From contig OX387185.1 in NCBI GenBank assembly GCA_947561395.2, positions 22,387,866 to 22,451,865 of the forward strand: a stretch of 64,000 bases of DNA, given 5' to 3'. Below, one piece after another: positions 13,454 through 54,701 of this stretch (its first letter is position 1; each line of letters begins with the position of its first letter). The position numbers were made by a program, and so were the translations under genes. Under the pieces are notes generated by a model. That model saw only the letters and a program-made list of their open reading frames with translations, searched no databases and was not told the DNA's origin. Source of the stretch: Buxus sempervirens (Eukaryota; Streptophyta; Magnoliopsida; Buxales; Buxaceae).

Positions 13454-13558
13454 GACCGCATTTATAATGCGGTTTGGGCTAAACTGCAGATCCAATGCTG
13501 TTCAAGCATGACTGCATATGAAATGTGGTCAAGCCTGAACTGCACTGAGAGTGCGGTT
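13454..13558. repeat. Four 21-bp palindromes, word AACYGC/GCGGTT (LTR A)
   Basis: Units at 13454-13474, 13482-13502, 13510-13530 and 13538-13558. Each is a 6-bp arm, 9 bp, and a 6-bp arm (GACCGC/GCGGTT, AACTGC/GCTGTT, GACTGC/GTGGTC, AACTGC/GCGGTT). Each starts 28 bp after the previous one. Confidence 0.8.
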
Positions 13559-14394
13559 CTGGCCCGATTTTATGATTTTGCCGCAAAACCGGCGGGGATC
13601 AGTTCGTCGGTTCTCCGGGGGTGTGCGCCAGCTCCTGTTGGGCTTCTCCGGCACTTTTGCTGTGATGGAATTCCTTCATTTGGCTTCAAATGTCTTCTTT
13701 TCTTTGGTGTCTCGTAGAAAGAAAAGCTCCCAACTCGTCTGCACTTTGTTTAAGCCCTTTGCAAACATGAGGTGCTAATTAAGAAGGGAACAAGGGGGGA
13801 AGAGTTAAGGGATACATCACATATCTAAAGGACGGCATACCCTCCTAAAGGAAAATGTTAACGGAAACCATTGGACTGTATTTATTCAAATGAGACTCCT
13901 TTAACATTCCATGAATGTAACTCTCCTCCCATGCTTTAAGTGGGGTCTCCCCCTTTCCAAGGGGAACCCAAGATCATGCATGATACAAGTAAATGGTGAA
14001 AAGCCAAAAGCAATATCAAGAATGTAAGAAACTTAGCAAAAACACTTGAATCTAAAGTATGTTGAATACAATTTTACCGGGAGCATCACCTCACTATTAC
14101 CTTTTGGTTCTGATGAGTAGTGGTTCCTTGGGAAATTTCGACAGCGCTTCTGCGTCCTCTTTCAATTCCGAAAAAGACCTCCTCCAACTTCTAGAAGGGG
14201 TGTTGGATTGGTTGTCAAGGGAGCTTGACAATGAAAGGGAATGGAAGGGATGCTGCAAGGGGCAAAATATGAAAAAGTTTGAATTTGAAAATAATAGAGG
14301 GATTTTTGGCAGGGTGCTGGACATGGGAGAAAGCAAGGGAAGAGAGTGAGGGACCAGCCTTGCTTCTTCTTGGAGCATCCCTCCCCCTCCCCTT

Positions 14395-14402
14395 TTATAG
14401 GG
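14395..14402 (-). promoter_or_regulatory. Probable TATA box of LTR A
   Basis: The minus strand reads CTATAAAAGGGG just after a pyrimidine-rich stretch. It matches the position of CTATAAAAGGG in LTR B and CTATAAATAG in LTR 1 and LTR 2. Confidence 0.4.
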
Positions 14403-15450
14403 GAGGTTGCTTAATGGCTAAGAAAGACCATTTTTTAATTATTTTTATCAAAAGTGACTTTTTTATTGTTATTTTTTACTTATGACTTATTACTTTTTAC
14501 TTAATGGTTAAGAAAGACTCTTTTGTTATTATTTTTTACTTAGGGGTTAAGAGAGACCTTTTTTATTATTATTTTTGTTTACTTAAGGGTTAAGAAAGGG
14601 TGACATCCATGTGGCGTAGTTTGCCACATGGGCAGTTTATTTTTGACCTAGGGCTGATCATAACTCTCTCATTTGAGCTCCGATTCTGGCAAACGCAATT
14701 GCGTTGGAATCGGGTCGGCATCCTGTAAAATCCCAGATTTTAGTAACTAGACTAATTGGTTAATAATATGCAGGAGATGAAATTTTGGTTCAACCCGGAG
14801 GAGTTCAAGATGAACCAGATATGATAGGAGAGCCTCTATAAGGTGAGCTCCTAATTATTGATCAAATATAATTTTAATATATTAGTTATTGTGCAATCAT
14901 ATTATATTAGTATGAATAAAATAAGAAATAAACAAGGAGAATACAAGGGATTGGTCAAACCCAAGGATAGTGGGTTGACCTAAGGAATTGAATTGATTTA
15001 AGAATTAGAAGGGTTTAAAGGTTTAGTTGTAATTTGGTTAAAAACGTTGATTTTTGGGTATATAATTTTTCTAGACCAATCCACGAGGAGTTTTCGGCTC
15101 AAATTCTGGTTATATTCTAGTTAGGGGTAAGCAAATCTTCTAGAATTTTATGGGTTTTTAAATCATCTAGGTACCAAATTCAAAACGGGATTTTTGATAA
15201 AAATCAGGAAAACTGGAATTTTAGGCATAAACTGAAAAGTTGACTTTTTATTGGTTGGGAATTGGGCCTTTGGAGTATTTTTATTGGCTCCAAATGGGGG
15301 GTAAAACCTTATTTACATGTAAAGACTTAAGAAAATGGAGCAATAAATACACAAGACATTTACTTAGATGTCTTTCAGGTAAATAAGGGTGCTGTGTAGG
15401 AGGCTCAGGTTATTTGGAAAAGGGATGGAGAAGAAAAGGGGATGAAAAAG

Positions 15451-17427: not shown

Positions 17428-18994
17428 TGTCGTACACAACCAAAAATAAACCACTACTTAAAAATATGCATATAGCAAGGTGAGTAAGGATCGTTCCACT
17501 GAGAGTTTCTATCTCTTTTTATGCTTTAGAAAACAGAATTAAGAGGGGGGTTTTGTCACAATGAGATCAGAAAATAACAGATTACTAAAAAGACTTTAAT
17601 AAATCAATCAAGAAAACAAACCTTGGTCTAAGTTAACATCCACCATCGGAATATCAAAGCTGATCATAGATGCTAGAATATATCAATTCACACATTGAAC
17701 ATTCACCCTTGGAAATACTTTCCAAACTCTTTCAATTATAGTTAATCAGAAAACAAGCGATCTAATTAACCTTAACTACTAAACAACCTCACACAAGCGG
17801 TAAAGATTTAATCCAGCAGCAGCTTTAGGGACTAGAAAGATTGATGAATCTAAACAATACAATCACAAGCGGCTGTATTTAATCTAGCAGAAAATTCTTC
17901 CTAAAGTCTAACAATTCTTGACGCAGCAAATCATTAAACCTCAGTTGCTTTACAGATTAGAGGGATCAAACAATTACGGATTTGATATCTAGCCTAGCAA
18001 TAAATTGCAACGAATAATGAACTAGTAGGCCTCCTAGCAATTAGACGGGACAATCATGAGAATAAACATAGAAGAATATTCAATGCTCAAGTATAAAACT
18101 GAACAATTAAAACATTAAGATCTCACAGCTTTATTAATTCCGAGGTTTCAGCCTCCTTTGACCAAGAATAAAAGTTTAGCCACACATGGCCATGGATCAC
18201 AAACTCAGAAGATAAATAGAAGAAGAAAGGAAGAAGAGGAAGAGAAAGAGGACGTCCAGAACTCAGAAAAGCTCCCTAGCCAAAAAACCTCCTTCCTTCA
18301 CATTTCAACTCCTCCTTTATAGAAATCACATAAACTTGCCCAAAATTCCCTTGAAAAGAAAATAGGAACTTTCCTTCCAAGACTCCTTGGAAGAGAGAAC
18401 TTCCTTTCCTTGTATATCCACGACCTAGAAGTCCAAAAACGACATAATCTTTTTAATTAGAAACCCCTTAAAGTCCTCCTAAAAACTAGAAGAAGATCTC
18501 TACAAAAAAGGAAACAAATCCGCAAAGTTCGGAATTTTATAATAGGTTTTAATACTTGATCGTTCGAACGTTCATCGAACGCGGGTTGAACGTTCAAGTC
18601 AAAAAGTTGTTTCCTCTTCTCTTGTTCGAACGTTCATCGAACGGCCAGTGAACGCTGCTCACAATTTCTCTATTTTTCACCAACGTTCGAACGTCAATCG
18701 AACTTTCAGCGAACGCTGCTCTCGGGTTTTTTGCAGAACACCAACGTTCGAACGTCAATCGAACGGCCAGCGAACGTTGATCATATCTTCTACAATTTGA
18801 CTCCGATTGTTACACCGTTTGAACCGTGACTTCTATAATCACCAAGAGTATCTCAGTTTAGCTTCATTTTGCCCACATGCTACCAATTGTAACCTAAATC
18901 AAAATATGAGCATAATCAGTATATTTAGGCACACAAATAAATTCAAAAGGTTAAATATTAGTAGAGAAAAATATAACAAAATAAGTTCTTATCA
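17428..18994. mobile_element. Non-coding TG-CA element, 1,567 bp, unclassified
   Basis: Begins TGTCGTACACAACC and ends AAGTTCTTATCA inside unit c. The flanks GTGAC and GTAGC are similar but not identical, so the target duplication is doubtful. No protein motif is seen. Near the start is a GTGAGTAAGGATCGTTCC block that I associate with LTR ends of plant retroelements, and near the right end is the CGTTCG/CGAACG palindrome cluster. It is most likely a solo LTR or a non-autonomous LTR element. Confidence 0.55.
18561..18765. repeat. Four 21-bp palindromes, word CGTTCG/CGAACG
   Basis: Units at 18561-18581, 18623-18643, 18684-18704 and 18745-18765, spaced about 61 bp. Each has a 6-bp arm, nine bases (AACGTTCAT or AACGTCAAT) and a 6-bp arm. 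The spacing between units differs from LTR A but the unit geometry is identical. Confidence 0.85.
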
Positions 18995-27435: not shown

Positions 27436-28247
27436 TGTAAAACATTGTTTTACCCATTCTCCCTCTGTTTAGATTAACCATCTACAATTTTCATGCCCAG
27501 CTCTAATATGTTGCATGTGCACACCCTTTTAGTTTGAAGGCATGTTTCTATGCTCTTATATTCACTTCATTAGCACACACATTTCACTATTTTGCATCTA
27601 ATATGGTTGAGATGTTTATAATTAGTCTTAAAGCAATGATTCATTTCTTGAGTGGGTATGAATCATGGTGTGGCAGTTTAGACCTTTGACATAGGCCAAC
27701 CGGGCCACTTTTTTATTCTCTTCCCATGGAGAGAGGAAGGCTGTCATATACACAGCAAGTGGGACACCTAAGCTCCCATTTAAACTCAAGGATTTCATCC
27801 CTAAGGGGGCCTTGCTCCCTATTATTTTGATATTAAAATCCATTAAACTAGTTTAATTAGGTCATAAACCCTAACCTCAGATCACTGTAGGCCTGCCCAA
27901 GGGCCCACAGTAGCCCTGGTCATTCGCAAAGATCAGTGGAACTCAACCCCTATCCAGAAAGGCAAAATTGTGGTTTTCTGTGCTTGATCGAAATCTCAGT
28001 TCGGTCAAGCACTTAACTGTTCATAACCGAAATTGGATTTCGGTTATACATAAAGTTCAGTATGACCAAAATTCAATTTTGGTCATGAACAATTACTGGG
28101 TTTACTGATCTATTTTTTCGGTTAAACCTAGAGAAAACCCAAAAATGCCATTTTTGGACTTTTGTTGCTTTAATCCCTTTTTAATCATAAACTAATAAAA
28201 TCCAACAGGGTTCTAGGTTCTCCTTTAACCCAATATGGGACTTGGGC
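27436..28247. other. Unassigned sequence with 21-bp palindromes
   Basis: This stretch begins TGTAAAACATTGTTTTACCC and does not match the flanking solo LTRs. It has no coding region that I can support. It contains palindromes at 27986-28006, 28025-28045 and 28064-28084. The TG start and the CCAACA near 28,207 could be LTR ends, but no target duplication is seen. It is probably a degraded LTR of yet another element. Confidence 0.4.
27986..28084. repeat. Three 21-bp palindromes, word RACCRA/TYGGTY
   Basis: Arms GATCGA/TCGGTC, AACCGA/TCGGTT and GACCAA/TTGGTC, each with a nine-base middle, spaced 39 bp start to start. In each unit the pairing extends two or three more bases outward (for example ATAACCGA with TCGGTTAT). 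Confidence 0.85.
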
Positions 28248-32679: not shown

Positions 32680-34760
32680 TGTAACACCTGTAATTAGGAT
32701 AATTTGAGATGTAGGAAGTGACAGAATTAAGTTTGGATAAAAGAATATTAATTTGGGACGATGAATGTAAAGATGGACTATAAAGAAGTATTATGAAATA
32801 ATAGGTGGACTTATGTGAAACCCCATTCCAATACCCCTAGCGCATCCTAATCAGTGAGCTTGATGTGTAGGTGAAGTTGGAGAAGCCCAAGCCTAAAGCC
32901 AGTCAAAGTGGCTAAGCCCCGGCTAGGTAGTGCCTATGGAGGTGAACAACCTCAAATTGTTGAATAAAGTTTGATCTTAAGTGACAAAATGGCTAAGTGT
33001 CGGCCTTGTGCAATGTAGAAGGAGGGAATGGCAAACTAGAAATTATAGTGCCTGGTGGATTTTGTTTAAGTGAAGCAAACCCAAACCCTTTCCTCTCTTC
33101 TCTTGCTCTCCCACTCTCCCATTTCTTCTTCATCTTCACCCCATTTTCGTCCCCCATCCATTCCAAAGCCATTGGAAGTATTGGTTTGCAAGAAAAGAGA
33201 AAGAAGAGAACCCAAGGACAGTGATTTTCGTTTGGGTTTGGAGCTTGGAGATTGGTGGAACAAGCCTCCAAGGAGACAAGGAGCTGTTCGTGAGTTGCAA
33301 AGGAGGCTAGTCAACTTGCTTAGTTGATTTCAAGAAGTAAGCAACACCACCCCAACCCTTATTTCACAATTTCAGCCATTTTCGTATGTTTTAGATGAAT
33401 GTTAGGGTTGAGATGTGAAAACGAGTATTAGGACAAATGGGAGGGATTTCTTCGAGGGGTTTTGTTGGTAGTAGATAACTACACATGTTAGGAGTAATTT
33501 AGAGCCCAAAAACACCCAAAACAAGTGAGATTTGAGAAAATCCCCAAATCCCAAAAGTTCAGATTTCGCGAGTTGCTGAGAAACACTAGCCACCTGAACA
33601 GCCGCTCGAGCGCGGCATCGGGTGATAGTTTAAGGGAGTGACCTAAGGCATGGCCGCTCGAGTGACTGCTCTAGTGACCTGCTTGAACAGAATAACCCGA
33701 GAGCTAATATTTGGCCACTTAAAGCAGGCTTGAGCGTTCTATCGAGCGCCCTTACCAGATTTTTCCATTTATGGATTTTTAACCCAGATTGAACTATTCT
33801 CTGTTTTTATTCAAATCTAACCTATTTATAAGTAAGAGTTAGGTGTCTAGGAGGTGTTCCAACTGGAAGTATCTTAAAATTTCAAATAACAAGGATTTTG
33901 GGTACATTTTGCCAAAGAGGGTCTTGGAGAAGGTTTCTGTCCCAAATTTATGTAAAAGTAGGATAAATTGAGTTTACCACTTTAAACACCTTCCGAATAG
34001 CCCCTAGAAGTAGAAGGCAAGAGTCAATACCAAGTTGTATAAGTATCAAAAGAATTGAGGCTTGGGTTGCCAAAGTAAGGCTTGAAATACACAGTGAACT
34101 TCACAGACAACATAAACATTTGATTTCCATTGTGAGTATGCGATTTATTTAGGGCATTGGCCCATTTGTTCACCATGCTAAATTAACATGCTATGTATTG
34201 TTAACATGATATGAGAAGGGCATTGGCCCATATTGAATTGCATGTTATAAAGGGCATTGGTCTAGCATTGAAATATTGTAGTATGATTGGTATCAGTGGA
34301 TAGTGTGTTGCGGTCCACCTCAATTGGGGGTAGTGAACCTTTGTTCACCTCAATTGGGGGTATTGGATTAGCCCCTTCCACAACAATAAGTCTTAGTGGG
34401 TTGTATGCGGTTCATCTCGGTTGGGGGTAGTGAACCATTGTTCACCCTGACCTGGAGATAGAGAATCAGCACCCCCACAAAAGCATGGGGATTTGAGATA
34501 CCCGGTATGATGAAAAGTGATTACGTGATTATTGGTGGGTAGTGTGTGCTGTTCATCTCAATTGGGGGTAGTGAACCATTATTCACCTCAATTTGGGGGT
34601 ACTGAACTAGCCCCTCCACAGCAGTAAGCCTTGGTGGGTAGATGGATCGGTTCATCTCAGTTGGAGGTAGTGGACTTTGTTCACCCTGGCCTGGAGATAG
34701 AGAACTCGTATCCTCCACGCAAGCTTGGGATTTGTTACATTTGAAATTATGATTATTGAT
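32680..34760 (+). mobile_element. Solo LTR unit k, partial
   Basis: A start-like TGTAACACCTG at 32,680 is followed 134 bp later by TGTGAAACCCCATTCC (32,814), which I take as the real start of unit k, with a sliver of another copy before it. A leader with AGAGAAAGAAGAGAACCC is followed by a donor-like AAGAAGTAAGCAAC near 33,337 and CGCTCGAGCG words at 33,598-33,760. The acceptor end is lost where LTR B begins (about 34,760). Confidence 0.6.
34305..34725. repeat. Tandem repeat with GGTTCACCTCAATTGGGGG core
   Basis: Several copies of a unit with GTTCATCTCAATTGGGGGTAG alternate with TTGTTCACC and CCCCTCCACA segments; the higher-order period is roughly 110-120 bp. It lies at the place where other units carry their own short repeats. 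Confidence 0.75.
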
Positions 34761-35235: not shown

Positions 35236-35334
35236 AGCCGGCCTGAGATGCCGGTTACATGCAGGTCTCTGTGTATCCGGCATCTTTAGCCGGCTACACA
35301 TAGGCTTATGTTGATCCGGCCTGAGTTGCCGGAT
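35236..35334. repeat. Three 21-bp palindromes, word ATCCGG/CCGGAT
   Basis: Units at 35236-35256, 35275-35295 and 35314-35334, spaced 39 bp. Arms AGCCGG/CCGGTT, ATCCGG/CCGGCT and ATCCGG/CCGGAT around nine bases. Pairing extends outward (GTATCC and similar). Confidence 0.85.
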
Positions 35335-36329: not shown

Positions 36330-36571
36330 ATCCGGCAACTCAGGCCGGATACACTAAGGCCTCTTCTTATCCAGCCTTCATGGCCGGATACACTGAGGCT
36401 CCTTTGTATCCGGTCTTCAAGTCCGGATACGAAACATAATCATTTGAAAATTAAATGCCGCCGCGAATTTGTAGGGCGATCGGCGCGGATCTCGCGCGAA
36501 AATCTTCTTGTATCCGGCCTTCAAGTCCGGTCATGAAGGGGAGCTAGTGTATCCGGTATATGTGACCGGAT
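36330..36571. repeat. Five 21-bp palindromes, word ATCCGG/CCGGAT
   Basis: Units at 36330-36350, 36369-36389, 36408-36428, 36512-36532 and 36551-36571. The first three and the last pair are 39 bp apart. They sit immediately upstream, on the minus strand, of the CTATAAAAGGG box of LTR B. Confidence 0.85.
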
Positions 36572-37952: not shown

Positions 37953-37970
37953 TCCCCAGCAGAGTCGCCA
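37953..37970 (-). other. Tat-type primer-binding site
   Basis: The minus strand reads TGGCGACTCTGCTGGGGA two bases after the LTR 1 end. This is the characteristic primer site of Tat/Ogre elements and fixes LTR 1 as a 5' LTR of a minus-strand element. Confidence 0.8.
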
Positions 37971-39353
37971 GTTGTGAGACATGGAAAAATCAAATCCAAT
38001 GACTTCCTCATCATCACGCGGGATTAAATAAAACAAAGAGTCGCCACCATTCAATTTAGGTGTGAATGGACACCAAAATATTAAATAAGCACAAAAGGCA
38101 ATTTTAGGGTAAAAATAACCCTCCTAAAAAAAACAACCAGAGATGGGTAAGGGGATTAAGTTATGAACAGGGGAAGGTGTTAGGCACCCTATTCATCCAC
38201 ACAAGGTGGTTGCCAGGTATTGTTCATGTTTTTCAAAGAAAAAAAGGCATGCTATAAAAATCATGAAAAAGAAAAAAATATATGGTTTTTTCATATGAAT
38301 AGTCTGATTGATCCAGAACTTTCAAATATGATTATACCATTCCTAGGGTTTCATGGTCAAAACAAAATTGAGATAAAATCAAATGAAATCAATTTAAAGT
38401 GAAAAATCCAAAAATCTGGCTTCAAGTTAAATTCTAGAAATCTAGAAAAATATGATTTTTATAAAATACTTCAAAATTGAACTTGAACATTCCAGGACAT
38501 AGATATAGCCCAAATTTCTCATTAAATCAAAAAATAAAAACCAAAAATACCCACGTTGATGAAGAACATCAAAAGGGGAGAACTTAGACCGTAGGGTCTT
38601 CTCTCAATAATGAAAAACGATTTAAAAACCGCATCATGAAACCTCAGAATTTATTTTCAGGCTTCTGGATCCAGATCTATCATATTGATCATGATATATC
38701 TAGGATCTTAGCCTAATATCACAAAAATTACGAAAATAGTGCTTTAGGTGCAAATATGTGAAAAATCCAAATTTTATAAAAAAAGGTGGGGATCTCATGC
38801 TATAAACATCATAGACATCATGTTATTCATTCAGATTTATCATAAAAAGCATTAAAACATGATCAGGATATTCAAAGCAGCCACATCTCACAGATTAGAG
38901 CACATTGGATTCTACCCTACGGATCCACCTGTTCTCTTTTCCCCTAGTTCTCTCTTCACGTTTTACGGCTAGAGAGGATTCTTGAGGTACTTGTAGATAG
39001 GTTTGGGTATACAAACACAATCAAAGGCCTTATTCTAAAAAAATGAAAAAAAACAGATATGGGGTTCTATTCTAGGGATCCACCTGTTCTCTTTTCCCCT
39101 AGCTCTCTCTTCACGTTTTACGGCTAGAGAGACTCTTAAGGTACTTAGAGACAAGTTTAGGAATACAAGATACAAAAGATGGCCTTATTCTATAAAAAGG
39201 AGGAAATCCTATTACTTCTAGAATTGAAGACAGAAAATAAAAGGGAAAAGGGACTTACCTGGATTGAGCAAGCAAAGCAACAGGGATTCCTCTTTTCTCT
39301 TGGAGCTTCTTAGACTTCAAATTTTCGTGGCCTTTTACTTGAGGAAAGGTCCT

Positions 39354-39362
39354 CTATTTATA
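39354..39362 (-). promoter_or_regulatory. TATA box of LTR 1
   Basis: The minus strand reads TATAAATAG followed by AGG. The same box occurs in LTR 2. The 21-bp palindromes lie about 200 bp upstream of it. Confidence 0.65.
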
Positions 39363-39562
39363 GGCAAACTCAGGGGTATGGTTGGTCCAAGGTTTGGCAA
39401 GATAGAGTTTCAGTTTGAGTTAAACACAAGATCATGCCCATCCTTTATCCACAAAGATATTTCGCACGAATAAAATATATAATTCGCTCATTTAAAGGGA
39501 TATTGGACTAAAGATAAGGCTCATAAATCGAGAGAAGAACAAAACTCGCACGAGTCTGATGT

Positions 39563-39667
39563 GCCCGTAAATGATTTACGGTCCAAAGGTGTCCGTATAT
39601 GTATTACGGGCGCTGAGTGCTCGTATATAAAATTCGGGCGTGCTTAGCCCGTAGATACACTACGGTC
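39563..39667. repeat. Four 21-bp palindromes, word GCCCGT/ACGGGC (LTR 1)
   Basis: Units at 39563-39583, 39591-39611, 39619-39639 and 39647-39667, with starts exactly 28 bp apart, as in LTR A. Arms GCCCGT/ACGGTC, GTCCGT/ACGGGC, GCTCGT/TCGGGC and GCCCGT/ACGGTC. Confidence 0.85.
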
Positions 39668-39769
39668 AAGGCTTGAATTATTCATTTTCATGCATTTTTG
39701 GCCTGTTTTAAATTCCAATTAATGTTTTCATTATTTTCTCATTTTGTAGTGCAATTTGGGGTGTCTACA

Positions 39770-40960
39770 GAACGCCTCATCCACAAATGGCTAAAAAGCC
39801 AACTAATCATGAAGGCCATCTAGACGGGGGATAGATAGCTGAAAATAAACAAAGTTGAATATCAGATTCTTGAAAAAAAGGGGGGGGGAAGAGATAAGAG
39901 GAATACATGAAAGCATTTACCTTTCTCCTGAAGGTCCTGTCCAAGTGAGCCCTGGCCGACCTAGGGCGACTCTTCTTAGAGTCGCTCCGAATCTGACTCC
40001 ATCTACGGGCCACAGGGAATGTCCCCTCAGGCAGTGTGGAGGTCGGGCGAAAGTGGGCCACATAGACCCGAGCGAAGAACTGAAAGAGAAAGAAAAAAGA
40101 GAGAGAGAAGATAAGAAAAAAGAAAAAGAAAAAAAAGAAAAGAAAAAAAGAAGAAAGAAAAAAAGAAAAGAAAAAGAGAAATGAATTCATACATGCAGGA
40201 AGGGCCAGAAGAACCTGCAGCCAACCCTAGCACCTCTGGGAGAGGATAGACCAGAGACCACTCGCCGCAGATCTGCTAACAGGGTGCCGTAGACAAGCTG
40301 GCCCCAAGCATAGTCCCTCGCTCGAGGTAGATCCCTGAGAAGACTCAAGAAATGAGGGCTGACTGGGGTGGTATCCTCCAAGCAGAAGCACGACCCATCG
40401 TCAAGAGAAAAAGGAAGCGGAAGGCCACCGGGAAGCTGGGATGCTCCGCTGCCACGGTACTATATCCCCTCTCTAGGAAGGTATCCCTCAACATAGTCCG
40501 GGAAAGGTGGGTGATCCTATTCCTATCCCACGCCTCCACTGGCATCTCATCATATCCCAAAAGCTCGGCAATCTCCAAATTAGCCGGCCTATCCAACTTA
40601 GTGATGACGTCTCCAGTCATCCTGATCCCGGTAATGAGAGCAAAGTCAGAGGGACGAATCTCAATCTCTACATCAGGCAAATGGAAGTTCAGGGTCTCTG
40701 GGAAAAACCGCTCCATCATAGCCGCTATCAGAGTTCGATCTTGACGAACGCTAGTGATAGTGATGAAGGGGCCAAACCCAAAACGGCCCATCTCTTGGCG
40801 CAAAGGGATCGAACATCCTGCCACCATCTCAGCAAAAAGAGCCCAGCTCCCGCGATAATGGGAAGACGGATAGACAAGGGGAATGTCAGCTCTGACGCCA
40901 GCCGAAGGGTGGGTCCTCAGATCGTGGAGAAGAGGAGTATCTCGAATCTAATCTGCTATC
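39770..40960 (-). pseudogene. Inverted fragment of a PMD-like ORF
   Basis: Minus-strand copy of 48,077-49,265. The longest open part (40,827-40,345) has HLPDVEIEIRPSDFALITGI and DEMPVEAWDRNRITHLSRTM; a second frame (40,381-40,187) continues with VSPHFLSLLRDLPRARDY, so one frameshift separates them. A purine-rich block at 40,080-40,192 is an intron with GT and AG borders on the minus strand; it creates spurious low-complexity open frames on both strands. The fragment is cut by LTR 1 on the left and LTR 2 on the right, and starts downstream of the N-terminal exon. The domain resembles the aminotransferase-like plant mobile domain. Confidence 0.7.
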
Positions 40961-42780
40961 TGTGAGACATGGAAATGTCATCTGGGATGACCTCCGATAT
41001 CATCACGCGGGGATCGATAAAAATAAGAGTCGCCACCATCCAAGTTAATGTGTGAATGGACATCAAAGGGTTCATGAAAGCCAAATAGAGCCAAAGTAGC
41101 TCTAAATGAAAGGAAAATCTAGAGATCAGATAAAGGGAATTATTTATGAGCGGGGGAAGGTGTTAGGCACCCTCACTCATCCGTCTAAGACGGTTGCCAC
41201 ATGCTTGCTTATGCTAGAAATTGTTTGCTAATAAAAATGAACGAAGAGGTGCTTATAATAAGCACAATGTGTGTGACCATTCCTCATGAGAAGTCCAATG
41301 AACTTAGACTCTCTTTGTGGATTCATCACTTCTAAAACTTCATGAGTGAATGGAAATCAAAGTAAAAAATGAAGAAAAATCAAGCTAAGGCAAATCTGGA
41401 AAAATTAGATCAAAAGAGCTTGAAAGCTTCGATTAACCATAACTCATTCAATTTAAATCCAAATCCAATGAAACCAAAGCCATTTGAAAACTGACATATA
41501 GTAAAGTATATAGTAAAAATTTCAGCTTAATCCGATTCAAAATGAGAGAGATATCCACATATGAAATCTGCTGTTATAACATGGAGAAAGCATTGAGTAG
41601 GCATTTTCAAGGTTCTATTTGTGGAGTTTGGCTTAATAAAAATCCGTGAAAATTTACATGGATGGAGTATGTGGTGCCATATTTCCAAGGAAATAAGCCT
41701 CATACCAAACTCTTGCCAGGTGTGACTTGTGTGCTCTCTCGAACAGGCCTAAAAGACCACAGATTAGCTCTGGACTATGCCAGCGAGCATCTCTGGGTCA
41801 ATTGAGCACCCAAGGCACAAAACAGATCAAAATCTCTTGAAACGAATTGGAAATGAAAATAGACTTCTCAAGGAAAACTCAGGAATTGAAATCACTCGAA
41901 ATGGATTAAAATTGAGCAAACGGTGCACCATCAAAGCGGCAAGTTCAGCAATCTTGGCTGAACTGACTTACAGACTTTGAACAGATGGTGTCAAAAAATG
42001 GCTCCATAAAAATGAATGAAAATTTCCAGATACGAAGTAGGCTTTCCCATCTATCACATGTCTTTGGAATCACTCAAAACTTCATCCGGAGGATGAAGTT
42101 ATAAGCATTCCAAGACAGGCCACAGATCTGCCCTGTTTTGAAGATTTTTGAAGAGAAAGCCAAAGCCAGTGCATGTGAATTCGACCAAAACACTTAAAAA
42201 TCAATCAAAACAATCTCATGAGGTTCTAAAATCCATTCTGAAGCCAATAGATTCAGATTTCCCATATTAAACATGGAAATCCGAGATCTAGCTTCTTTGA
42301 TGAAAATGGTGAAAAGTGTGTGAATAGGTGGAAATCAGTTTTCTAGGAGAAATCTGGGATCCATTGCTATTGAGAGCAAGGATTCACTTAACTTCTCCAT
42401 AAGAAAATACATAAACATCAGAAAATTCATCCATAAGCTCAAAATAATCAAACAGCATGCTCTTCATCATTTGTGGGTTCTAAGCCTAGAGGATCCATTC
42501 CTACTTCTTTTTCCCAAGGCTTTCTCTTCACGTTTTACGGCTAGAGAGAGGTCCCAGGTACTTTGGAAGAGGTTTGGGGCTACAAACAATCACCAGGGCC
42601 TTACACTACAGAAAGGTAGAAGATGAGAGATTGTTGGAATGTAAAGAGAAAACTAGAAATGTAAAGAGAACTTTACCTTAGGTAGCTTGAGCTTTGAGTA
42701 GACAATCCAGCTGAGTTTCTCCTCTTCTTGAAGAGCTTCTATGCTTCAAATTACCAGCCATTTGCAAGAGGAGGACCCCT

Positions 42781-42789
42781 CTATTTATA
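42781..42789 (-). promoter_or_regulatory. TATA box of LTR 2
   Basis: The minus strand reads CTATAAATAGAGGGG, closely matching LTR 1. Confidence 0.65.
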
Positions 42790-42991
42790 GGCCAAGCTAG
42801 GGGTATAAGAGTCCCAAGGGTAGGCCTAAAAAGCTTTCTAGATTATTCCAATTCAAGCCAATGCCTTGAATTGTTGTAATACTAGAAGTTTCGGAGGGTG
42901 AAATAGGGAGTTCAAGTCCCTGAGAGAGAGGTAATATGCGTAAATAAGGCTCAGAGATCGAGCCATTTCGCAAATCCCTCGAACAGCCAAA

Positions 42992-43256
42992 ACCACATAC
43001 ACAGTGCGGTTTTCACCGAACCGTCACTATAAGTGCGGTTTCTTTGCAAATTTAACCAAACTGCACATACAAGGCGGTTCAATTCAGTTACGCTCGTCAT
43101 GATTGCTGTCGACGTGGCTCAACGGCCGAAGCTTCGCGAAGCCACGTGGCAGCTCAAGCAACAAGCATGAATATCAACCGTGCTATGTGTGCGGTTGCAA
43201 CCGCACATACAGGGCGGTTGAGACCAAATTACAAAAACCGTATACTTAGTGCGGTT
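42992..43256. repeat. Six palindromes, word AACCGY/GCGGTT (LTR 2)
   Basis: 21-bp units at 42992-43012, 43059-43079, 43176-43196, 43199-43219 and 43236-43256, plus one 22-bp unit at 43019-43040. They lie 200-480 bp upstream of the minus-strand TATA box. Confidence 0.85.
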
Positions 43257-43369
43257 AGCATCTTTATTGATTGTTTTTGAATGTTTGACCTATGTCAAGG
43301 CTCAAATAAGACTTTTAAAGTTCTTTTTGAAGGTTCTCTTCTATGGAAGTGCAATTTGGGGTGTCTACA

Positions 43370-43714: not shown

Positions 43715-43831
43715 AACCGTACTGAACATGCGGTTTTTAGCAATTTCGATACCGACCGTTCTGTATGTGCGGTGTTTGACAATTTTAATACTAACCGTTC
43801 TGTATGTGCGGTTTTCTAGGTTTCATATAAA
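43715..43831 (+). promoter_or_regulatory. Probable promoter of the PMD-like antisense ORF
   Basis: Three palindromes (43715-43735, 43754-43774, 43793-43813; starts exactly 39 bp apart, arms AACCGT/GCGGTT) end 12 bp before a TATA-like TATAAA (43826-43831). Downstream is a pyrimidine-rich leader with CCCTAACTCTCC and then a donor GAG/GTAAGTGG at 44,174. This is what a plant promoter and 5' UTR would look like on the plus strand, opposite to gag-pol. Confidence 0.55.
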
Positions 43832-44173
43832 CGCAACCGCGACTGGCTTCACTTTGTTCGTAAAACCCTTGAGAACCCAAGCCCTAACTCTCCTCTCTGG
43901 CGATCGTGGTCTTCCTCCAGTCTTCGATCCTCCTCTTCTCCGGCAAAGTCAATCCCTGTCCGGCGACTTCATCTCCTCCGGCGTTTCTTCCATTCTCCGG
44001 CATTTGCTACCTCTGTGGAAGGGGTTTCCAGCAGGCGAACTGCTCTTATCTCGTCGACTATTCCATTGTGGCCGAGAGTCCTTCTCTTCTCTGATTTCAA
44101 TCAATTGTTTTTGAAGTTCCGGTGAAGTCCAGCCCATTTCCCTTATCAGAAATTTATCTTTCGGCCGATAGAG

Positions 44174-45056: not shown

Positions 45057-45171
45057 ATGGCCCGTACACGTCGCGCTTCCCGGGGTCCCGCGGATGAGCC
45101 TTCAACTTCGAGGGTTCGGAGGGATCCGGCCGATGTGGCTTCTTCCTCTAGGGCCGAGACGGACCCTGATC

Positions 45172-48076
45172 TGTAAAACCCCGAATTTTCACCTAATAAA
45201 TAAATAAATAATAAATAAAAGAAAATATGAGTTAAGTCCTAGTTAAAATAAAAAGTGAAGATTTAGAGGATAATTAATTCAAATAAGTTCTAAGTTGAAA
45301 ATAAAGAAAGAATTTTAATGAAATTAGCCTAAAAGAATAAAAAGGGTATTTTGGTAATTTCCAGAAAAGGGTAATTAGTAAATAGATCATCAAATAATAA
45401 TTAGAATTAGAAAATAGAAGAAAACAAATTATTTTGACAAGTTAGAAATTAAAAGAAATTAATAAAAGCCTAAAAGTGGGAAAAAGGGTAATTAGGAGAT
45501 TTCACGTCTTAATTTGGAGAAAATAAGGTTTTAAGTGATAGAAATGTTTAATTAAATATTTTGCACTAAAATAGGGTATTTTCATGAGTTTAGATAATAA
45601 GAAACTTAATTAGTATTGTTTAAGTAGAAAATAGAAGGTGGAGAAAAAGTAGGAATTAAATTAGAAGGATTAGACTTTAACTAGACCATGGTTGGGTTAG
45701 CCCAAATTAAATTAGCCAATTAGGGTTGGTTTAGGATTTCTAAAGCCTTGTATAAATAGGAGACTAAGGTTAGACAAGAGGGAATTTTCGTGGGTTTCTT
45801 ATGGAGAGAAAAGAGGGAGAGAAAGGAAGGAGGTTTCTAATGGAGGTGTCTGTCCAGCCACCATCAAAACGCGATCGGGGAAAATCCGTACGGTGGATCG
45901 CCTTCAAATTTTGAGGTTTTGTTCTTAACTGATGGAACTACAATGTGAACGGTAGAAATTTGAATTGGAGAAGTCTAGCTTGGTGCGGTTGGGAGCAAAA
46001 TTCTGGTCCAGAATTAGAAGGTGCAATGGAAGAAGGATTTAGCGTATAAGGCAAGTAGTAACCCTTGGAAAACGTGAGGAATTGCATGATTTTTATTTCT
46101 GTGATTTCATATGGTTAGCATGGATTAGACGGAACTGTATTTACATGGAATCAAGTTGCTTATATTTTCATGATTTGTATTCTTGATGGATTTATCAAAT
46201 TAATGAAGAAAGTTTAGTTGGATTATGTAAATAAGGGTAGGAGGGTATTTAATTCATAAAAAATTACTCTAGAAGGCTCTAGGTAAGTTTCAGAAAGTTT
46301 GTAGATTAATTTAGACCAAGAAAACATAAAGCAAAAGCATAAGAATCCGAAATTGGAAAATCTGGAAAATTCTGTTAAAAATTGCACGAGCGCCTAGGAT
46401 CGCCTAGGATTGCTCAGCCCTGTAGAGGTAGGCGCTCTAAGTAAAATTTGTAGATTTTGGGGATTTTGTAATTCGAATAAATACCCAATAATTCTTATGA
46501 TTAGTTAAGCATGTTAGCATCTTTATAAGGACCTAATTAAGCTATAAAAATTATAAAATTAATTGGGAAAGATTAAGCAATAAATAGAAGGTTATAATGA
46601 AAGGATTGTTTATAAAAGAGTCAAAGGGTATGGATATTGCTAGAAATAATACTACTTAAATTTATAGCTTATAAACATCTTTTAAACTTCATTCTAGGTC
46701 TGTAGAACATGCTGGAAAAATAAAATACAGAAAATTCAAATAGAAACTAGCTTAGGTGCTAAGGTAGGAAATTGGATTCTAATAAAGGGATTAAGAAGGA
46801 AAAGTTCAAGCATGATTTGATTTACTTTTATTTGAGCTTTATATAGGAATATTGGCTACTGGAAGTGCCTAAACTCAGATTTTATCGGATTTATGATACT
46901 TGAGTTTTATTTTGAATATAATTGGAAGAATTGCATATGTTATTCTGAAAATGCCTATAATTGGATTTGTTATGATTGAATCATGGATTTCACATGGAAT
47001 GGAATACTTTGGTATGGATTGGTATGTGGTATGATATTGTTCTCTTTAATTTTACGGTTGGGTGATACGGCTTCTGTGGTAGAGTTGATACTATCTTTTA
47101 CGGCAGAGATGGGTAATCCTCTGTGTAGAGATGTGTAATCCTTTACGGGTAAAAGTGTGTATGCCTCCTACATTAGCGTGTCCTCCCGTATGTGGTTTTA
47201 TCGTGGTTTGTGTCAGTGGGCTTAGCTGTATATGGATCCATAGTTTTGGTTGGTTAGCTAAGTGGTATTTAGTTTGGATTGATTTACTCCTATATGCGAG
47301 CGTGCTTCCCTTTGCAAGTTAGTTTGCTCTGGGAGGGTCCTATGTCTGGAGGGACACCCCGGTGAGCCGCTGGTGATTCCCTGTACATGTGGATAAGCGA
47401 CCACACTCCATGTATTGATTCTGGTGCTGCATGCTGGTGGTACGTCCAACTCTGCGGGGTTCGTGCATAATAAGTCGGTGACTACGGCTCTTGCCTAAGC
47501 TGCGTTGCATGGGGCTTGAGTATCATTAAGTAACATTGCCCCTAAGCCGCACGGTGGAACAGCATTTAGTCGAGTGTCATCTCAAATACTTATCATCTTT
47601 GTGAGTCCTGCAATGGCACGTGTTTTGTCGCTTTTGTCGATTTTACCTCGTTAACATCAAGAGACTGGTATTTATACATGATCATATGTTTCATCGCCTT
47701 ATTTGTAATTGCTATGGATAACTTGGATTTCTCGTCTTATCGTTGATTAATCGAATACCTCATGACTATTTGCTTATACTGGACTGTTTCAAATTGCATG
47801 CACCTGCTACTTGTTGAGATGTAAATCTCACTCCGTTTTCCCCTATTTTTCAGGTTGCTTGGAGAGATCGCGAAGATGGGGTTTTAATTTGATGGGTAGA
47901 AATATAATTGGTATTAATGCCACATGTTGATTAGATAAACTTTATTGTAAACAGAATTGATATTATTGAATAAAGAATTGTTGTTATTGGCCACCATAAC
48001 TCTGATGTAATTAATTTGTAAATTTTAAAATTATTGTGAATCTTGGTTTGTATCTGACCCTAGCTTCGTGGTAACA
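45172..48076 (+). mobile_element. Solo LTR unit l inside the PMD-like ORF
   Basis: Starts TGTAAAACCCCGAATTTTC; ends about GTGGTAACA. It is 2,905 bp. TATA box TATAAATAGG at 45751, GC-type donor-like AAGGCAAGTAGTAAC near 46,050, GAGCGCCTAGGATCGCC words at 46,385-46,440, the GAGATGTAAATCTCACTCCG block and a TATTTTTCAG acceptor near 47,853. The segment 47,320-47,460 matches unit a in reverse complement. The right end is decayed and no clean target duplication is visible. Confidence 0.75.
45751..45758 (+). promoter_or_regulatory. TATA box of unit l
   Basis: TATAAATAGGAG is followed by a leader with AGAGGGAGAGAAAGGAAGG, in the same layout as unit j. Confidence 0.55.
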
Positions 48077-50772
48077 CCTCGAGACACCTCTCTCCTTCAT
48101 GATTTGAGGACGCACCCTTCGACGGGCATCAGGGTAGACATTCCTCTTGCTTATCCATCTTCCCATTTCTGCGGGAGCTGGGCCCTTTTCGCCGATGTGG
48201 TAGCTGCCTGTTCGACTCCTCTGTGCCGAGAGATGGGCTGTTTTGGATTTGGCCCCTTCATCACCATCGTCGGTGTTCGTCAGGATCGGCCCTTGATCGC
48301 GGCCATGATGGAGCGATTTTTCCCAGAGACCCTGAGCTTTCATCTGCCTGACGTGGAGATTGGTATTCGCCCTTCTGACTTTGCTCTCATTACTGGGATT
48401 AGGATGACTGGAGATGTCATCACCGAGATGGATAGGCCAGCCGATTCGGAGATCGCCGAGCTCTTGGGATATGATGAGATGCCCGTAGAGGCATGGGACA
48501 GGAGTAGGATCACACGCATTTTTGGACCTGGTTGAGGATGACCTTCCTGGAGAGGGGATACAGTACCCTGGCCACGGAGCATCCTAGTTTCCCAGTGGCC
48601 TTTAGGTTTCTTTTTCTTTTGATGATGGGGTCGTGTTTCTGCCTAAAGGACACTACCTCAGTCAGCCCCCATTTTCTGAGCCTTCTCCGGGATCTGCCTT
48701 GAGCGAGAGATTATGTCTCGGGCTAGCTTGTCTATGGCACCCTGCTAGCGGGCCTACGACGAGTGGTTTCTGGCCTGTCCTCTCCCAGAGGGGCTGGAGT
48801 GGGTTGCAGGTTTTTCTGGCCCTTTTTGCAGGTATGAATTCTTTTCTTTTCTCTTTTTCTTTCTTTCTTTTCTCTCACTTTCTTTTCTTTTCTTTTCTTT
48901 TTCCTTTCTTTTTGCTTATCTCTTTTTCTTTCTTTTTTCTCTCTCTTTTTTTTTCAGTTCTTTGCTCGAGTCTATGTGGCCCATTTTTGCCCGACCTCCA
49001 TATTGCCTGAGGGGACATTCCCCGTGGCCCGCCGATGGAGTCAGATTAAGCGCGACTCAGAGAAGAGTCGCCCTAGGTCGGCCAGGGCTCACCTGGATAG
49101 GACTTTCAGGAGAGAGGTAAGCACTTTCCTCTTTTCTCTCTCTCTTTTCCTTTTCTTCTTTTTGCCAGAATCTGACATTCACCTTTGTTTATCTTCAGCT
49201 ATCTGTCCCTCGTCTAGACGGCTTACATGATGAGCTGGCTTTTCAGCCCTTTGTGGATGAGGCGTTCGCTCTAGATCAGCGGCGCCAGAGGTACCCTTTT
49301 TTCATTGGGCATCTGGGTAGCATATGGTACCTTGGCGAGCGCTTCTTCTTCCAGCATACTGGCGAGCTCCGGATCCCAGTGGCTCCTCCAGCTACAGCAC
49401 CCTTCACCCCTCCTGGTCCATTCGACCTTGCTCACTTCGGCGATTGGGAGGCAGGAGATGCCCTTTTAGTCGAGGGTGACTATGATACCTAGTTCGGGCA
49501 GGTCTCAGTGGGTTGTCTTATGCAGCCCATGCCCGTTCGAGGTGGAGTTACTGAGATTGGAGGGGTGGTGATCCGCTTGTACGACACCACGGTATAAATC
49601 TCCTTTCCTTGTGCAATCCTTTAGTCTTCTTCCCTTGTTTGAAGTTTATTGATATCCTTTTTCTTATCTCGTCTTAGGAGGCACAGCTAGGGGAGGTCCG
49701 AGCTAGATATGCGGATCTGGAGCGTCAGTTGGCTGAGAGGGACGCTGCCATAGCTGAGAGCGACGTCATCATCACTGGGCAGGCCTCTCTTATTGCGGAT
49801 TTACGGGCCCAGTTGGCCAGTGCTCAGGGCCAGGCGGGGCCTTCACGAGTTCAGGTCATTCTTCTATCCCTTTCAATTTCTGTATTTTGTCTTTTATGTT
49901 CTCTGCCTCTGATCAACCTGTCTTTGTCTTCCAGGAGGACGTGGCAGCTTCACCATCCAGCTTCCGCACCTTATCCCTTTCCTTAGGAGCTGCAGAGATC
50001 CCAGAGAGAGAGAGGCTGAGGTGGCGGCTGAGGCTACTTCTGCTGCTGCAGTTCCAGAGTCTATTGAGCTACCAGAGGTTGCATCCGTGCCTGAGACTGC
50101 TCCCGAGCCTGAGACTGCACCAAGGGAGGATCTTGCGATTATCACGGAGCCAGCGGGGGGTGACTTGGAGATTCTTGCGGTTTCTGAGGCAGTAGAGCTC
50201 GTGAGAGAGGAGGGTGTGCCAGATGTAGCCGAGCCCGAGGTGGCAGAGGTGTGTGATGCGGCGGATCCCATAGACATAGATTCATTTCCTCTTGTCGAGG
50301 GTTCCCGGATTCTGGAGCTGGTCCCTTTGGCAATGGATACGTCTGTCTCCTGCTTCATGGACCTCTCCTGGGATGATCCAGTTCCAGTTCCAGCCTCTTC
50401 AGTTGAGCCAGTGCCCTCTGTAGACCCAGTGCCTCCTGCTGGTCCTTCTACCCTTGATGAGCCGTCTTCTCCTGCTAGCCAACGCTTCTCAGATCATTTC
50501 TTTATCCGACAGCGACGGCAAGGCGGAGGTGGTAGGGATTGACCTGTAGATAGGTTTAGATTAGGATTTATCTGATGCTTGTGTATAAATATGATGTATT
50601 TATTTGCATTTGTATGGAAAAGAGACAGATATTCATTTTTTTTTTGCTTCTTTTCTCTTGTCTTTTGTTCTTTTGCTTTATGTTTATCATGCTGCAACTG
50701 TTATACAGGTAACAGGTAATTTTTGGGAACATGACTTATTAAAAGAAAGAAGAAAAACTGTTTTTGTGCAAA

Positions 50773-50912
50773 AACCGTATATACAGGGCGGTTATGCGAG
50801 AACCGTGCTTGTTCCGCGGTTTTTAAACTTTGCGGGAATGCAACCGCACATTGAGTGCAGTTCAGGCACAACCGTTCTGAGTATGCGGTTTTTGCCCTTA
50901 TGTTATTTTAAA
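50773..50912 (+). promoter_or_regulatory. Probable promoter of the DUF7745-like antisense ORF
   Basis: Four 21-bp palindromes (50773-50793, 50801-50821, 50842-50862, 50870-50890; arms AACCGY/GCGGTT-like) are followed by a TATA-like TTATTTTAAAG at about 50,901-50,911, a GACGTCAC bZIP-type core at about 50,931, and a short pyrimidine-rich leader before ATG 51021. The order is the same as at the PMD-like ORF. The TATA assignment is weak. Confidence 0.5.
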
Positions 50913-51020
50913 GCCGCGAATCGCTGGCAGGACGTCACTTTTACGTATTGCTTAGGTCAGAAACCCCCTTTTCGGCGATTTTCTCTCTCCTAGCTGCCTT
51001 TAACCCACTTCTGCCCATTA

Positions 51021-52671
51021 ATGGCCTCTGATTCAGCTTCTGCGCCCTCTTCATCTTCTGTACCTGAAACATCAGCACCTAGGCCAAATATTAGGTCCAA
51101 ACCTCCTAATTTAACCAAGTATGCCATTGTAGATGCCTATTATGAGAGATGGGTTGGTTCAATGACCCCACAAGATGAAATAGATTGGGATTCCACCAAT
51201 CTAGCCATGTTCTCTCAATCCCAAAGGTTCCCCTGAAATGGGAAATCATAGAGGCACTAATTGGGCACTGGGAACCCCAACTGAATCTTTTTAGATTTGG
51301 GGAGAAGGAGATGACCCCTACAGTCGAGGAGATTGAAACCATCCTCAACCTTAGGTTCTCCAAGAAAGTAGTTAACCCACCTCTCAAACCAAGCTTCAAA
51401 AAGGAAGCCTCCACCTTTTTAGGAATTAGCAAGAAAGAGCTAGGGGAAGCTGACGCCCTATTGACCCTATCAAAGTCATTTTTAACTGAAAAGCTGTCGA
51501 ACAGCTCGAACCAGTCGGCTCGGTTCAATGCTTTGACCTTGATAGTGGTCAATCAGCTTTTATTCCCTCGAGAGGACAGTGAGGTTGATTTATCCCTCAT
51601 TTCAGTCATCTGCCAAGTTAGGGAGCGCGAAAGGCTTGCCCCTATGATCCTGGCTGAAATATACCAGGCCTTGACTGACTGCTATCATCGGAAGAAGAAA
51701 AGCTTCTTGGCCTGCGCCCCCATCCTTCAGGTAAAATCTGAACTCTTTCTTGAATTACAGTTTTTATTGAAAAATTGAGATTTTCTAAGTTAGAAATGCT
51801 TCCCTTTTCTTTGCAACTCTGGCTACTTGACCACCTGAGTCAAGTTGAAGAGATAACCCGCCGCTTCTTCCCCCGATTAAACATTCCTGTTTTGATGAGC
51901 AACAGGGGGTGTCCCAACATCCACGGTGGCAAACAGGGATGGTTCACTTTCTTGGGGACGCTTCAGGATGACCAGGTGAGATGGCCTGGTGCTTATCAAC
52001 CTTCCACTGAGACAGTGATCAGCTTCTCCGATCAGAATTTTGCTGTGCTTATAGGCTTGAGGTCCACCTTGCTCTATTTGCCTTTGAGAGTCATTCGGCA
52101 GTTCGGAGAGAAGTCTAAGGGGATTTTGGTACCTCAGGGGTACGAAGAGTTCATTGGTCCTCTCACACCAGCCACCATGGGGTTCTGCTATCGCTTGTTG
52201 AAGGACTGGTCGCAGGCTTGCTTCTTGAGAGGTCCTGTCTTTTCCAAGTTGTATGAGAAGGACTACCTCTTTTGGATCAAGGAGCAGGTGCAGAGCTGTG
52301 CTTCTATCCTACTGGACTCTCCTGCTGTTCCATGTCCTACCTATGAGGACCTCTTGGAGACTGAGCGGGCTTCTCATAGACGGCTTCAGCATATATGGGT
52401 GGAGGAGGCCCGAGCCCTGAGATTGGAGAAGGAAGACCTGGAGAGACGGCTATCAGAGCAGATACAGGCCCGTCGCTTCGAGGTTAGAGCCGCATGGCGT
52501 AGGCATGATGAGACCATGGCCAGGCTCAGAGATATGAGGACCAGACAGACCCTCTCAAACGACGTCATCTCATTCCTCAGTGACCCAGATGCAGAGGGGG
52601 CTGAAAGGCTTGTTGCGGTTCAGGCGGCTCGGATCAGAGAGCTTGAGGAAAGGCTAGGGGATAGAGATTAG
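51021..52671 (+). pseudogene. DUF7745-like antisense ORF
   Basis: Starts MASDSASAPSSSSVPETSA at 51021. After a frameshift near 51,220-51,236 it continues with EIIEALIGHWEPQLNLFRFG, EMTPTVEEIETIL, PREDSEVDLSLI and CAPILQ. An intron of about 61 bp (GTAAAATC at 51,730 to CTAAG at about 51,790) leads to LQLWLLDHLSQVEEITRRFF, NIHGGKQGWFTFLG and a long charged C-terminal segment (EKEDLERRLSEQIQARRFEV) likely to form a coiled coil, with stop at 52669-52671. The SRxFRFG-TPTxEE pattern resembles the plant DUF7745 family, which is common near Tat elements; biochemical function is unknown. It reads opposite to integrase and may be intact apart from the one frameshift. Confidence 0.65.
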
Positions 52672-53651
52672 CCCCATTATTGTATTTCTGCCTTTTTTTA
52701 CACTTTTGTACAAAGAGAAACTCCACTAGTGGAAAGATAAAGAATACAAAATAGGTTTTTATACTATTGGCTTCAGAACTCTCATATGCTTGTAAAAACT
52801 GACAGTTTTAATGAAAAGTCACTGGTTTCTCCTCATCGGCTAAAATATAATTTTCTTTTTGTGGGTTTTCGTTTTAAATCAGTCCATAATGCTTTAATCC
52901 CATATGGTTTGATGAATTGAAGTAAGTTGGGCAAAAAGGGTATTTTAACTAATGAGGAAGAAGCCATTCCATCCCCCCTGGAGCCTTTAGACTCATCCCC
53001 AAGTTTCATTCCCACCTCCAGGGGTCATGCCACAGCCTACTGGTTCAGTCCTGAACGGAAAATTTGCTCAACTCAATTCTACTGCCCAAAACCGTGCATT
53101 CAGACCGGTTTGGCCAAAACCGTCTCCAACATGCGGTTGCCTAGCCCTTCGGCCAAAACCATAGTCAAAGGGCGGTTTGGTTCAATCTGTACCCAAAGTG
53201 CAGTTTGTGACCTCTTTTTCTGTTTCTTTCTTTTCTTTTATTATTTTTTTCTTTTGCCTTTTCTTTGCCAATATTGCCCCTAGTGCCTGTTACGGTTTTG
53301 ACTAGGACCGGCTCATTTATTCCGTCATTGCCCATTCAACACCGTGAGTTGAAGGAATACACCTAGATCACCGAGGACTTGACCAATAGGACGAAACGAA
53401 GGCTGGGTTAAGTTTATGAAAGAAAGCTATTATAGGCTCAAAATTTTGACATCTTGAAATAGAACAACTGGGCTTACAGCTATAATGGATGCGACTCCCC
53501 ATTCCCAATATTGGCCTTTTTTCTCTTCTTTGTATTTGGCCTTTCTTTGCTATTTTTCCTTCTTTGTTTTTTCTTTTCTATTAACTTTGCCCCAGTCGCA
53601 ATTGTAAGCCCCAGTTTGGGTTCTTTAAAACACGAATAGGCTCAACTTGGT
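52672..53651. other. Spacer between the antisense ORF and integrase
   Basis: The 3' ends of the DUF7745-like ORF (+) and of integrase (-) converge here. It is pyrimidine-rich at 53,215-53,275 and 53,510-53,585. Four palindromes of the AACCGY word lie at 53,090-53,205. No supported gene is present. Confidence 0.6.
53090..53205. repeat. Four 21-bp palindromes, word AACCGT/GCGGTT
   Basis: Units at 53090-53110, 53118-53138, 53157-53177 and 53185-53205, some arms decayed. They lie downstream of the DUF7745-like ORF and beyond the end of integrase. Confidence 0.8.
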
Positions 53652-54695: not shown

Positions 54696-54701
54696 TGTAG
54701 A

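Follow-up and report, generated by a model that had tools for sequence, protein, structure and literature searches.

Phased CCG-N11-CGG palindrome arrays in LTR elements of Buxus sempervirens, candidate operator sites for a dimeric factor

We analyzed a 64,000-nucleotide stretch of the Buxus sempervirens genome (GenBank assembly GCA_947561395.2, contig OX387185.1, positions 22,387,866 to 22,451,865, forward strand), referred to here as the window. It contains long terminal repeats (LTRs) and a gypsy gag-pol region accompanied by two antisense open reading frames (ORFs). A first-pass annotation of the letters had described clusters of imperfect palindromes in different elements, each with two 6-bp arms around exactly 9 bp (21 bp in all). 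Such clusters exist, and nine were located, from 13,454-13,558 through 53,090-53,177. Their units share a CCG/CGG core, stand mostly 28 or 39 bp apart, and in several arrays lie upstream of TATA-like sites. The single window is the basis of all counts, and copies within a family were compared for the plant mobile domain (PMD) piece described below. The nine arrays are listed here:

13454..13558: array of the LTR A region, four units (13454, 13482, 13510, 13538) at 28-bp spacing, with 13482 and 13510 decayed
27986..28084: the 27,986 group, three units at 39-bp spacing, with symmetry extending beyond 21 bp
35236..35334: lower cluster of the LTR B region, three units at 39-bp spacing
36330..36571: U3 (upper) array of LTR B, five units in steps of 39, 39, 104 and 39 bp, lying 20-261 bp upstream of the TATA-like site on the minus strand at 36310
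39563..39667: U3 array of LTR1, four units at 28-bp spacing, with 39619 decayed, 207-311 bp upstream of the TATA-like site
42991..43256: U3 array of LTR2, 21-bp units at 42991, 43059, 43176, 43199 and 43236 plus a variant of 22 bp near 43019; the array is 208-473 bp upstream of the LTR2 TATA-like site
43715..43813: promoter array of antisense ORF 1, three units at 39-bp spacing, ending 10 bp before the plus-strand TATA-like CATATAAACG at 43824
50773..50890: promoter array of antisense ORF 2, four units in steps of 28, 41 and 28 bp, ending 12 bp before the TATA-like TTATTTTAAAG at 50903
53090..53177: the 53.1-kb array, three units in steps of 28 and 39 bp, the third (53157) with one core mismatch, in the interval separating the 3' ends of antisense ORF 2 and pol

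The motif CCG-N11-CGG occurs 27 times in the window, while the runner-up among gaps of 0-39 occurs 10 times. In 200 block-wise dinucleotide shuffles, CCG-N11-CGG averaged 2.2 (sd 1.5, maximum 7), and counts were at most nine at any gap from 5 to 20. CCG at unit positions 3-5 with CGG at positions 17-19, or one-base variants of these, was found in five of the six named groups, the element at 17,428 being the exception. The arms had been thought to vary independently by element; this view was not upheld, as CCG at positions 3-5 is nearly constant across the five groups. The 68 half-sites from 34 units in the nine arrays gave the consensus RWCCGNAYW, in which position 1 is A or G in 67 half-sites, position 2 is A or T in 61, and position 9 is A or T in 65. 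Unit selection used CCG and symmetry, and positions 7 and 9 played no part in it. Because the core and the consensus run through five groups, the element words are variants of a single theme, and families differ mainly at half-site positions 1, 2, and 6. CTGAG stands at the unit center (positions 8-12) in 6 of 34 units, with three supplied by LTR B and one apiece by LTR A, the 27,986 group, and the ORF 2 promoter, and at none of six other offsets tested; this set of 34 differs from the consensus set in including the isolated exact cores at 13254, 31217, 40992, and 49696 and in entering 53157 as 53155. These four cores sit outside the arrays and are probably there by chance.

Inverted repeats were counted in three modes: word-blind, by named word, and via the common core. 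The word-blind count of exact 6-6 repeats across all 64 kb was 52 with a 9-bp gap (N9), 52 with N7, and 21-47 at other gaps from 0 to 29; confined to 13,454-53,205, N9 and N7 each gave 35. This count was dropped as a defining statistic, since N9 equals N7 and the clusters stand without a density peak. By named word, over gaps 0-24, AAC[CT]GC...GC[AG]GTT and ATCCGG...CCGGAT each had four matches, all at N9. RACCRA...TYGGTY matched twice at N9 and once at N2, and CGTTCG...CGAACG had two matches at each of N9 and N20. The word assigned in the first pass to LTR1, GCCCGT...ACGGGC, did not survive the count, with no exact match at any gap in this range; the four LTR1 units are imperfect, and none carries exact GCCCGT-N9-ACGGGC. 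When the shared core and symmetric arms were required and one core mismatch was permitted, 31 units were found at N9 and 2-6 at each of N5-N8 and N10-N14, and at least three of the 31 (13254, 36743, and 49020) look like chance. The 9-bp spacer is therefore specific given the shared core, but not in the word-blind tally. LTR B and the 27,986 group show symmetry running 1-3 bp past the 21-bp length, and arm symmetry in the LTR2 element lies chiefly in the outer 5 bp, AACCG/CGGTT.

Linkers between 22 close neighbor pairs measure 7 bp in nine cases and 18 bp in ten. The count of close linkers leaves out the 22-bp unit near 43019 as well as the gaps 36408-36512, 42991-43059, and 43059-43176. The register of the decayed units 13482, 13510, and 39619 was picked with the 28-bp lattice in mind, and five of the 19 matching linkers depend on it. 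A test on exact-core units, which is free of decayed units, covered 14 neighbor distances of at most 130 bp; eight are 28 or 39 bp and two more are 56 or 78 bp. None of 20,000 random placements within the same clusters reached 10 of 14 (best 7) under the multiples 56, 78, 84, and 117, which were chosen after viewing the data, and none reached eight of 14 for 28 and 39 alone. The start-to-start spacing of 28 or 39 bp, remarked on in the first pass, is thus confirmed. In the 28-bp arrays, half-sites fall on one 14-bp lattice with alternating orientation. Seven of the eight lattice points in LTR1 are exactly CCG or CGG and the eighth is TCG; in LTR A the half-sites at 14-bp steps read CCG CGG CTG CTG CTG TGG CTG CGG, three of the eight exact and the rest one-base variants. 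The 39-bp step exceeds the 28-bp step by 11 bp, about one helical turn, and this difference points to double-stranded DNA with contacts between neighboring complexes.

The exceptional group has a layout of its own:

18561..18776: array of the 17,428 element, GAACG at 11-bp steps in four groups

It begins 243 bp upstream of 18318, where a TATA-like site on the minus strand was placed by eye. GAACG triplets stand at 18566/18577/18588, 18628/18639/18650, and 18750/18761/18772, the groups are 61-62 bp apart, and the group at 18689/18711 is without a clean middle copy. There is no CCG-N11-CGG in this element. It had been counted among the 6-9-6 arrays; this LTR-like element carries a phased array of another kind. 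Common origin with the other arrays was considered and ruled out on account of the missing core and the different layout. Heat-shock elements consist of contiguous alternating nGAAnnTTCn units; for comparison, GAANNTTC was found at four positions of 18541-18800 and TTCNNGAA at none.

Two LTRs were delimited:

37972..39769, minus strand: LTR1, starting TGTAGACACC, with a TATA-like site at 39356 and a primer-binding-site-like sequence at 37953-37970 next to it
40961..43369, minus strand: LTR2, starting TGTAGACACCCCAAATTGCACTT at 43369, with purine-rich GAAGAGGGGGCAGT just outside and a TATA-like site at 42783

LTR2 is read as a 3' LTR because the purine-rich tract lies just outside its 5' end. 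The two LTRs are related in sequence yet carry different palindrome words: their first 22 bp are identical, and 72-74% of positions agree in matching stretches around the TATA-like site, downstream of it, and at the 3' end. The unit nearest to the TATA-like site is 207 bp away in LTR1 and 208 bp away in LTR2. A 39-bp AT-rich tandem repeat at 14487-14598 in LTR A lies upstream of a minus-strand TATA-like site near 14397 (by eye), where LTR B has palindromes, and its period equals the 39-bp unit spacing. At 34296-34734, a sequence of about 200 bp is present in two copies, 82% alike, with starts about 239 bp apart.

Next to LTR2 lie the coding regions:

53652..61152, minus strand: gypsy gag-pol, with gag, G-patch, reverse transcriptase (RT), ribonuclease H (RNase H), a second RNase H and integrase, in several open pieces
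45057..50542, plus strand: antisense ORF 1 region, PMD (PF10536, E 5.4e-07) in 48029-48535, below the curated cut-off
51021..52671, plus strand: antisense ORF 2 region, DUF7745 (E 2.6e-21) and PMD (E 3.4e-12) in 51179-51778
40345..40947, minus strand: piece of a second antisense-PMD copy (PF10536, E 4.9e-06, below the curated cut-off)

The gag-pol carries an extra RNase H (RVT_3, 54702-55343) between RT with RNase H (55743-57143) and integrase (53652-54701). This is the order in Ogre and Retand elements, and PMD is given for 57% of Ogre elements, in the available portion of PMC6317226. An additional PMD ORF, another Ogre characteristic, is present at 51179-51778 (PF10536, 46.6 bits, cut-off 34.9; PF24924, 76.5 bits, cut-off 26). 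Ogre elements are further marked by a primer-binding site complementary to tRNA-Arg and by paired LTRs; on this point the window offers the primer-binding-site-like sequence beside LTR1. LTR2, the antisense genes, and gag-pol appear to form one Ogre-type element. Units of the AACCG...CGGTT type are found in its LTR2, before the antisense ORF 1 and ORF 2 regions, and at 53090-53177; these arrays are an element-specific motif clustered in noncoding parts, as in a VANC-type system. Exact CCG-N11-CGG is absent from the 7501-bp gag-pol, the ORF 2 region, 1-11949, the nested insertion, and 61153-64000, and the ORF 1 region holds one isolated exact core (49696).

An insertion of some 2.9 kb, at roughly 45170-48078, divides the ORF 1 region, whose start was read by eye, as were the insertion borders. 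In the ORF 2 region, the piece at 51754-52671 has a weak DUF7745 match (E 0.00034, below cut-off), and the pieces are in different reading frames. Compared with the 40504-40944 copy, antisense ORF 1 showed a dN of 0.086 and a dS of 0.84; it is under purifying selection, because dN/dS is 0.10 over 147 codons. At 39770-40960, LTR1 is inserted in the second PMD copy and LTR2 adjoins it, and the LTR1 flank matches about 49255-49267 of the other copy. The PMD pieces had no relative at E 0.001 in a large protein collection (377 and 2495 candidates). Five stretches of viral contigs matched a pattern from the RT piece, none of which was confirmed. The region 5' of gag (61326-63476) contains three tandem-repeat arrays with periods of 136, 69, and 79 bp.

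The arrays are probably promoter DNA sites for a dimer. The dimeric factor of variable specificity suggested in the first pass is supported by the symmetric half-sites, the fixed distance between their centers, the 11-bp step, and the positions upstream of TATA-like sites, but the constancy of the CCG core and of A or T at position 9 through five groups limits how variable that specificity can be. A dimer would bind each 21-bp unit via two inverted RWCCGNAYW half-sites with CCG centers 14 bp apart. Adjacent dimers, mostly 28 or 39 bp from one another, would share the same rotation and could touch. Such a factor would act on LTR promoters and, in the LTR2 element, also on both antisense-gene promoters. 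Our preferred reading is tentative and not far short of an even chance: the arrays would be operators for a cooperative dimer whose likeliest binder is the antisense PMD/DUF7745 protein of the element. That the antisense PMD protein is the binder is, taken singly, a possibility somewhat below even. The PMD/DUF7745 protein could serve the element as an activator or anti-silencer, turning on its own gene and the LTR, and sites and protein would diverge together between families. An element-encoded antisense factor would explain why one word is common to LTR and antisense promoters, why related LTRs have differing words, and why the PMD ORF is kept under selection. The full circuit is rather doubtful; in it, an antisense PMD protein would form a cooperative dimer chain on a 14/25-bp half-site lattice, recognize family-specific palindromes in the LTR and its own promoter, and activate or un-silence its own family alone, each family evading the factors of the others through changes at half-site positions 1, 2, and 6.

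Several observations weigh against this proposal. No TATA-like site could be tied to the lower LTR B, LTR A, and 27,986 clusters, and the TATA sites are sequence matches, with TATA and ORF boundaries partly read by eye. Three of the 22 close linkers are off-pattern (2, 16, and 20 bp). Linkers resemble one another in the upper LTR B array (0.72), the ORF 1 promoter (0.72), and the lower LTR B cluster (0.56), and because of this likeness recent duplication may lie behind the spacing in both LTR B arrays and the ORF 1 promoter. The window does not reach the 5' LTR of the LTR2 element. DNA binding by PMD is without structural support: the PMD piece had no sequence match in PDB up to E 1, and its AlphaFold model was unusable (mean pLDDT 38.8). 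No open frame of at least 120 aa is present between 10,486 and 39,807. No PMD was recognized near LTR A, LTR B, or the 27,986 group in Pfam scans of six frames over 20.1-24.9 and 29.9-34.7 kb and of plus frames over 12.7-14.7, 27.4-28.2, and 34.7-36.3 kb, the five regions to which the search for PMD and pol remnants was confined; the single Pfam match there was U9-ORF (E 0.0069, below cut-off), which is unrelated. Lastly, CCG stands at a fixed distance in all five groups, and a host factor explains a constant core more simply.

A host dimeric factor with CGG/CCG half-sites, for example a LATERAL ORGAN BOUNDARIES DOMAIN (LBD) protein exploited by the elements for their expression, is nearly as likely as the preferred reading. 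Host factors are commonly used by LTR U3 regions; we know of no CCG-N11-CGG arrays for LBD factors. Like the factor envisaged here, LBD proteins are dimers with CGG-containing half-sites that measure distance, and one of them discriminates palindromes through dimerization as "molecular calipers" (PMC10118128, as far as its accessible text goes). The LBD core, GCGGCG, differs from the RWCCGNAYW seen over our 68 half-sites. Word differences between families would, on the host account, reflect different paralogues or tolerated flanks. Such a factor does not predict the symmetric family-specific letters at positions 1, 2, and 6, nor the one word in the LTR and antisense promoters of a single element, each of which is weak evidence. 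An element-encoded PMD factor is slightly favored over a host factor.

The units might instead work as RNA, as hairpins or as 21-nt small RNAs from LTR transcripts. Folding of seven arrays gave strongly negative z-scores in six (-3.6 to -8.3) and -1.8 in the antisense ORF 1 promoter, the strongest (-7.2 to -8.3) belonging to the 27,986, LTR B, LTR A, and antisense ORF 2 arrays; palindromic units, however, fold by construction. With units fixed and linkers shuffled (the 22-bp unit being masked 1 bp off, at 43018), the LTR1, LTR2, ORF 1 promoter, and 53.1-kb arrays gave z-scores of -1.2 to +1.7, within noise. Linkers did stabilize the hairpins in the LTR A, 27,986, and three-unit LTR B arrays (-4.2 to -7.4 on the stronger strand), and an RNA role may exist there. 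Intermediate values came from the ORF 2 promoter (-2.1, -3.4), and in the two-unit LTR B array the effect was slight at most (-1.2, -2.1). Folded whole, the ORF 2 promoter array (50768-50895) forms one long hairpin (28-41-28; z -7.4). Selection on 21-nt RNAs, also raised in the first pass, is unsupported given the four arrays in which linkers had no effect on folding. As an explanation of the arrays in general, RNA is improbable: TATA-like sites lie downstream of the arrays of LTR1, LTR2, upper LTR B, and both antisense genes, an 11-bp step in spacing is characteristic of double-stranded DNA, and Rfam at gathering thresholds returned no match. Functionless, neutral tandem duplication of a palindromic unit in each family is equally improbable. 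It draws on the alike linkers noted above and on Tandem Repeats Finder, which reported 28- or 39-bp repeats in LTR A, upper LTR B, and the antisense ORF 1 promoter. Against it, linker identity is at or near chance in LTR1 (0-0.29), LTR A (0.29-0.43), the ORF 2 promoter (0.29), and the 27,986 group (0.39), whereas units in these four are 0.64-0.72 identical, and spacing and core recur in otherwise unlike surroundings.

The putative element-encoded PMD factor has partial counterparts. VANDALs are DNA transposons, and in a VANC-type anti-silencing system the element-encoded protein removes DNA methylation from its targets. In foamy viruses, one element-encoded factor, Tas, acts on the LTR and on an internal promoter of its own gene; the promoter orientation differs, and the function suggested here is putative. 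In Arabidopsis, the noncoding parts of VANDAL elements contain repeated short motifs to which the VANC proteins of the same elements bind; the VANC6 motif, an 8-nt AGTTGTCC or AGTTGTAC, differs from that of VANC21 (PMC5735166, in part). The resemblance lies in many short, element-specific noncoding motifs that vary between related elements, together with an element-encoded accessory protein (PMC5735166 and PMC10398659, from the sections available). The VANC6 motif differs in being 8 nt long, and the string "palindrom" is absent from the main text of PMC5735166, whereas the present units are 21-bp palindromes on a fixed lattice. The candidate here is encoded antisense in a retrotransposon and is a PMD protein, assigned by Pfam to PMD/DUF7745, with putative binding.

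Antisense ORFs between pol and the 3' LTR are likewise found as aORF-3R in Tat, Ogre, Retand, and Grande elements (excerpts of PMC7264820, PMC11963269, and PMC6317226). The role of the Grande, RIRE2, and Retand antisense ORFs is described as unknown, and Grande gene23 is nuclear with its own antisense promoter (PMC7264820, partial text). For the Retand TRP28 proteins, DNA binding is predicted and a transcriptional role suggested, both unconfirmed, in the text available of a 2025 survey (PMC11963269). The portions of these reports at hand describe no cis-acting site for such proteins, whereas here the LTR and both antisense promoters share a palindromic word. In mainly open-access literature, no title among the matches listed concerned palindrome arrays in LTRs, and no description of a palindromic site for Tat, Ogre, or Retand antisense proteins was found in the text available.

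The palindromes common to the LTR and the antisense-ORF promoters offer a concrete cis-element for the question of what these antisense ORFs do. If the proposed reading is true, sequence-specific anti-silencing would no longer be confined to DNA transposons but would include retrotransposons, and the evolution of specificity would be readable from the palindrome arms.

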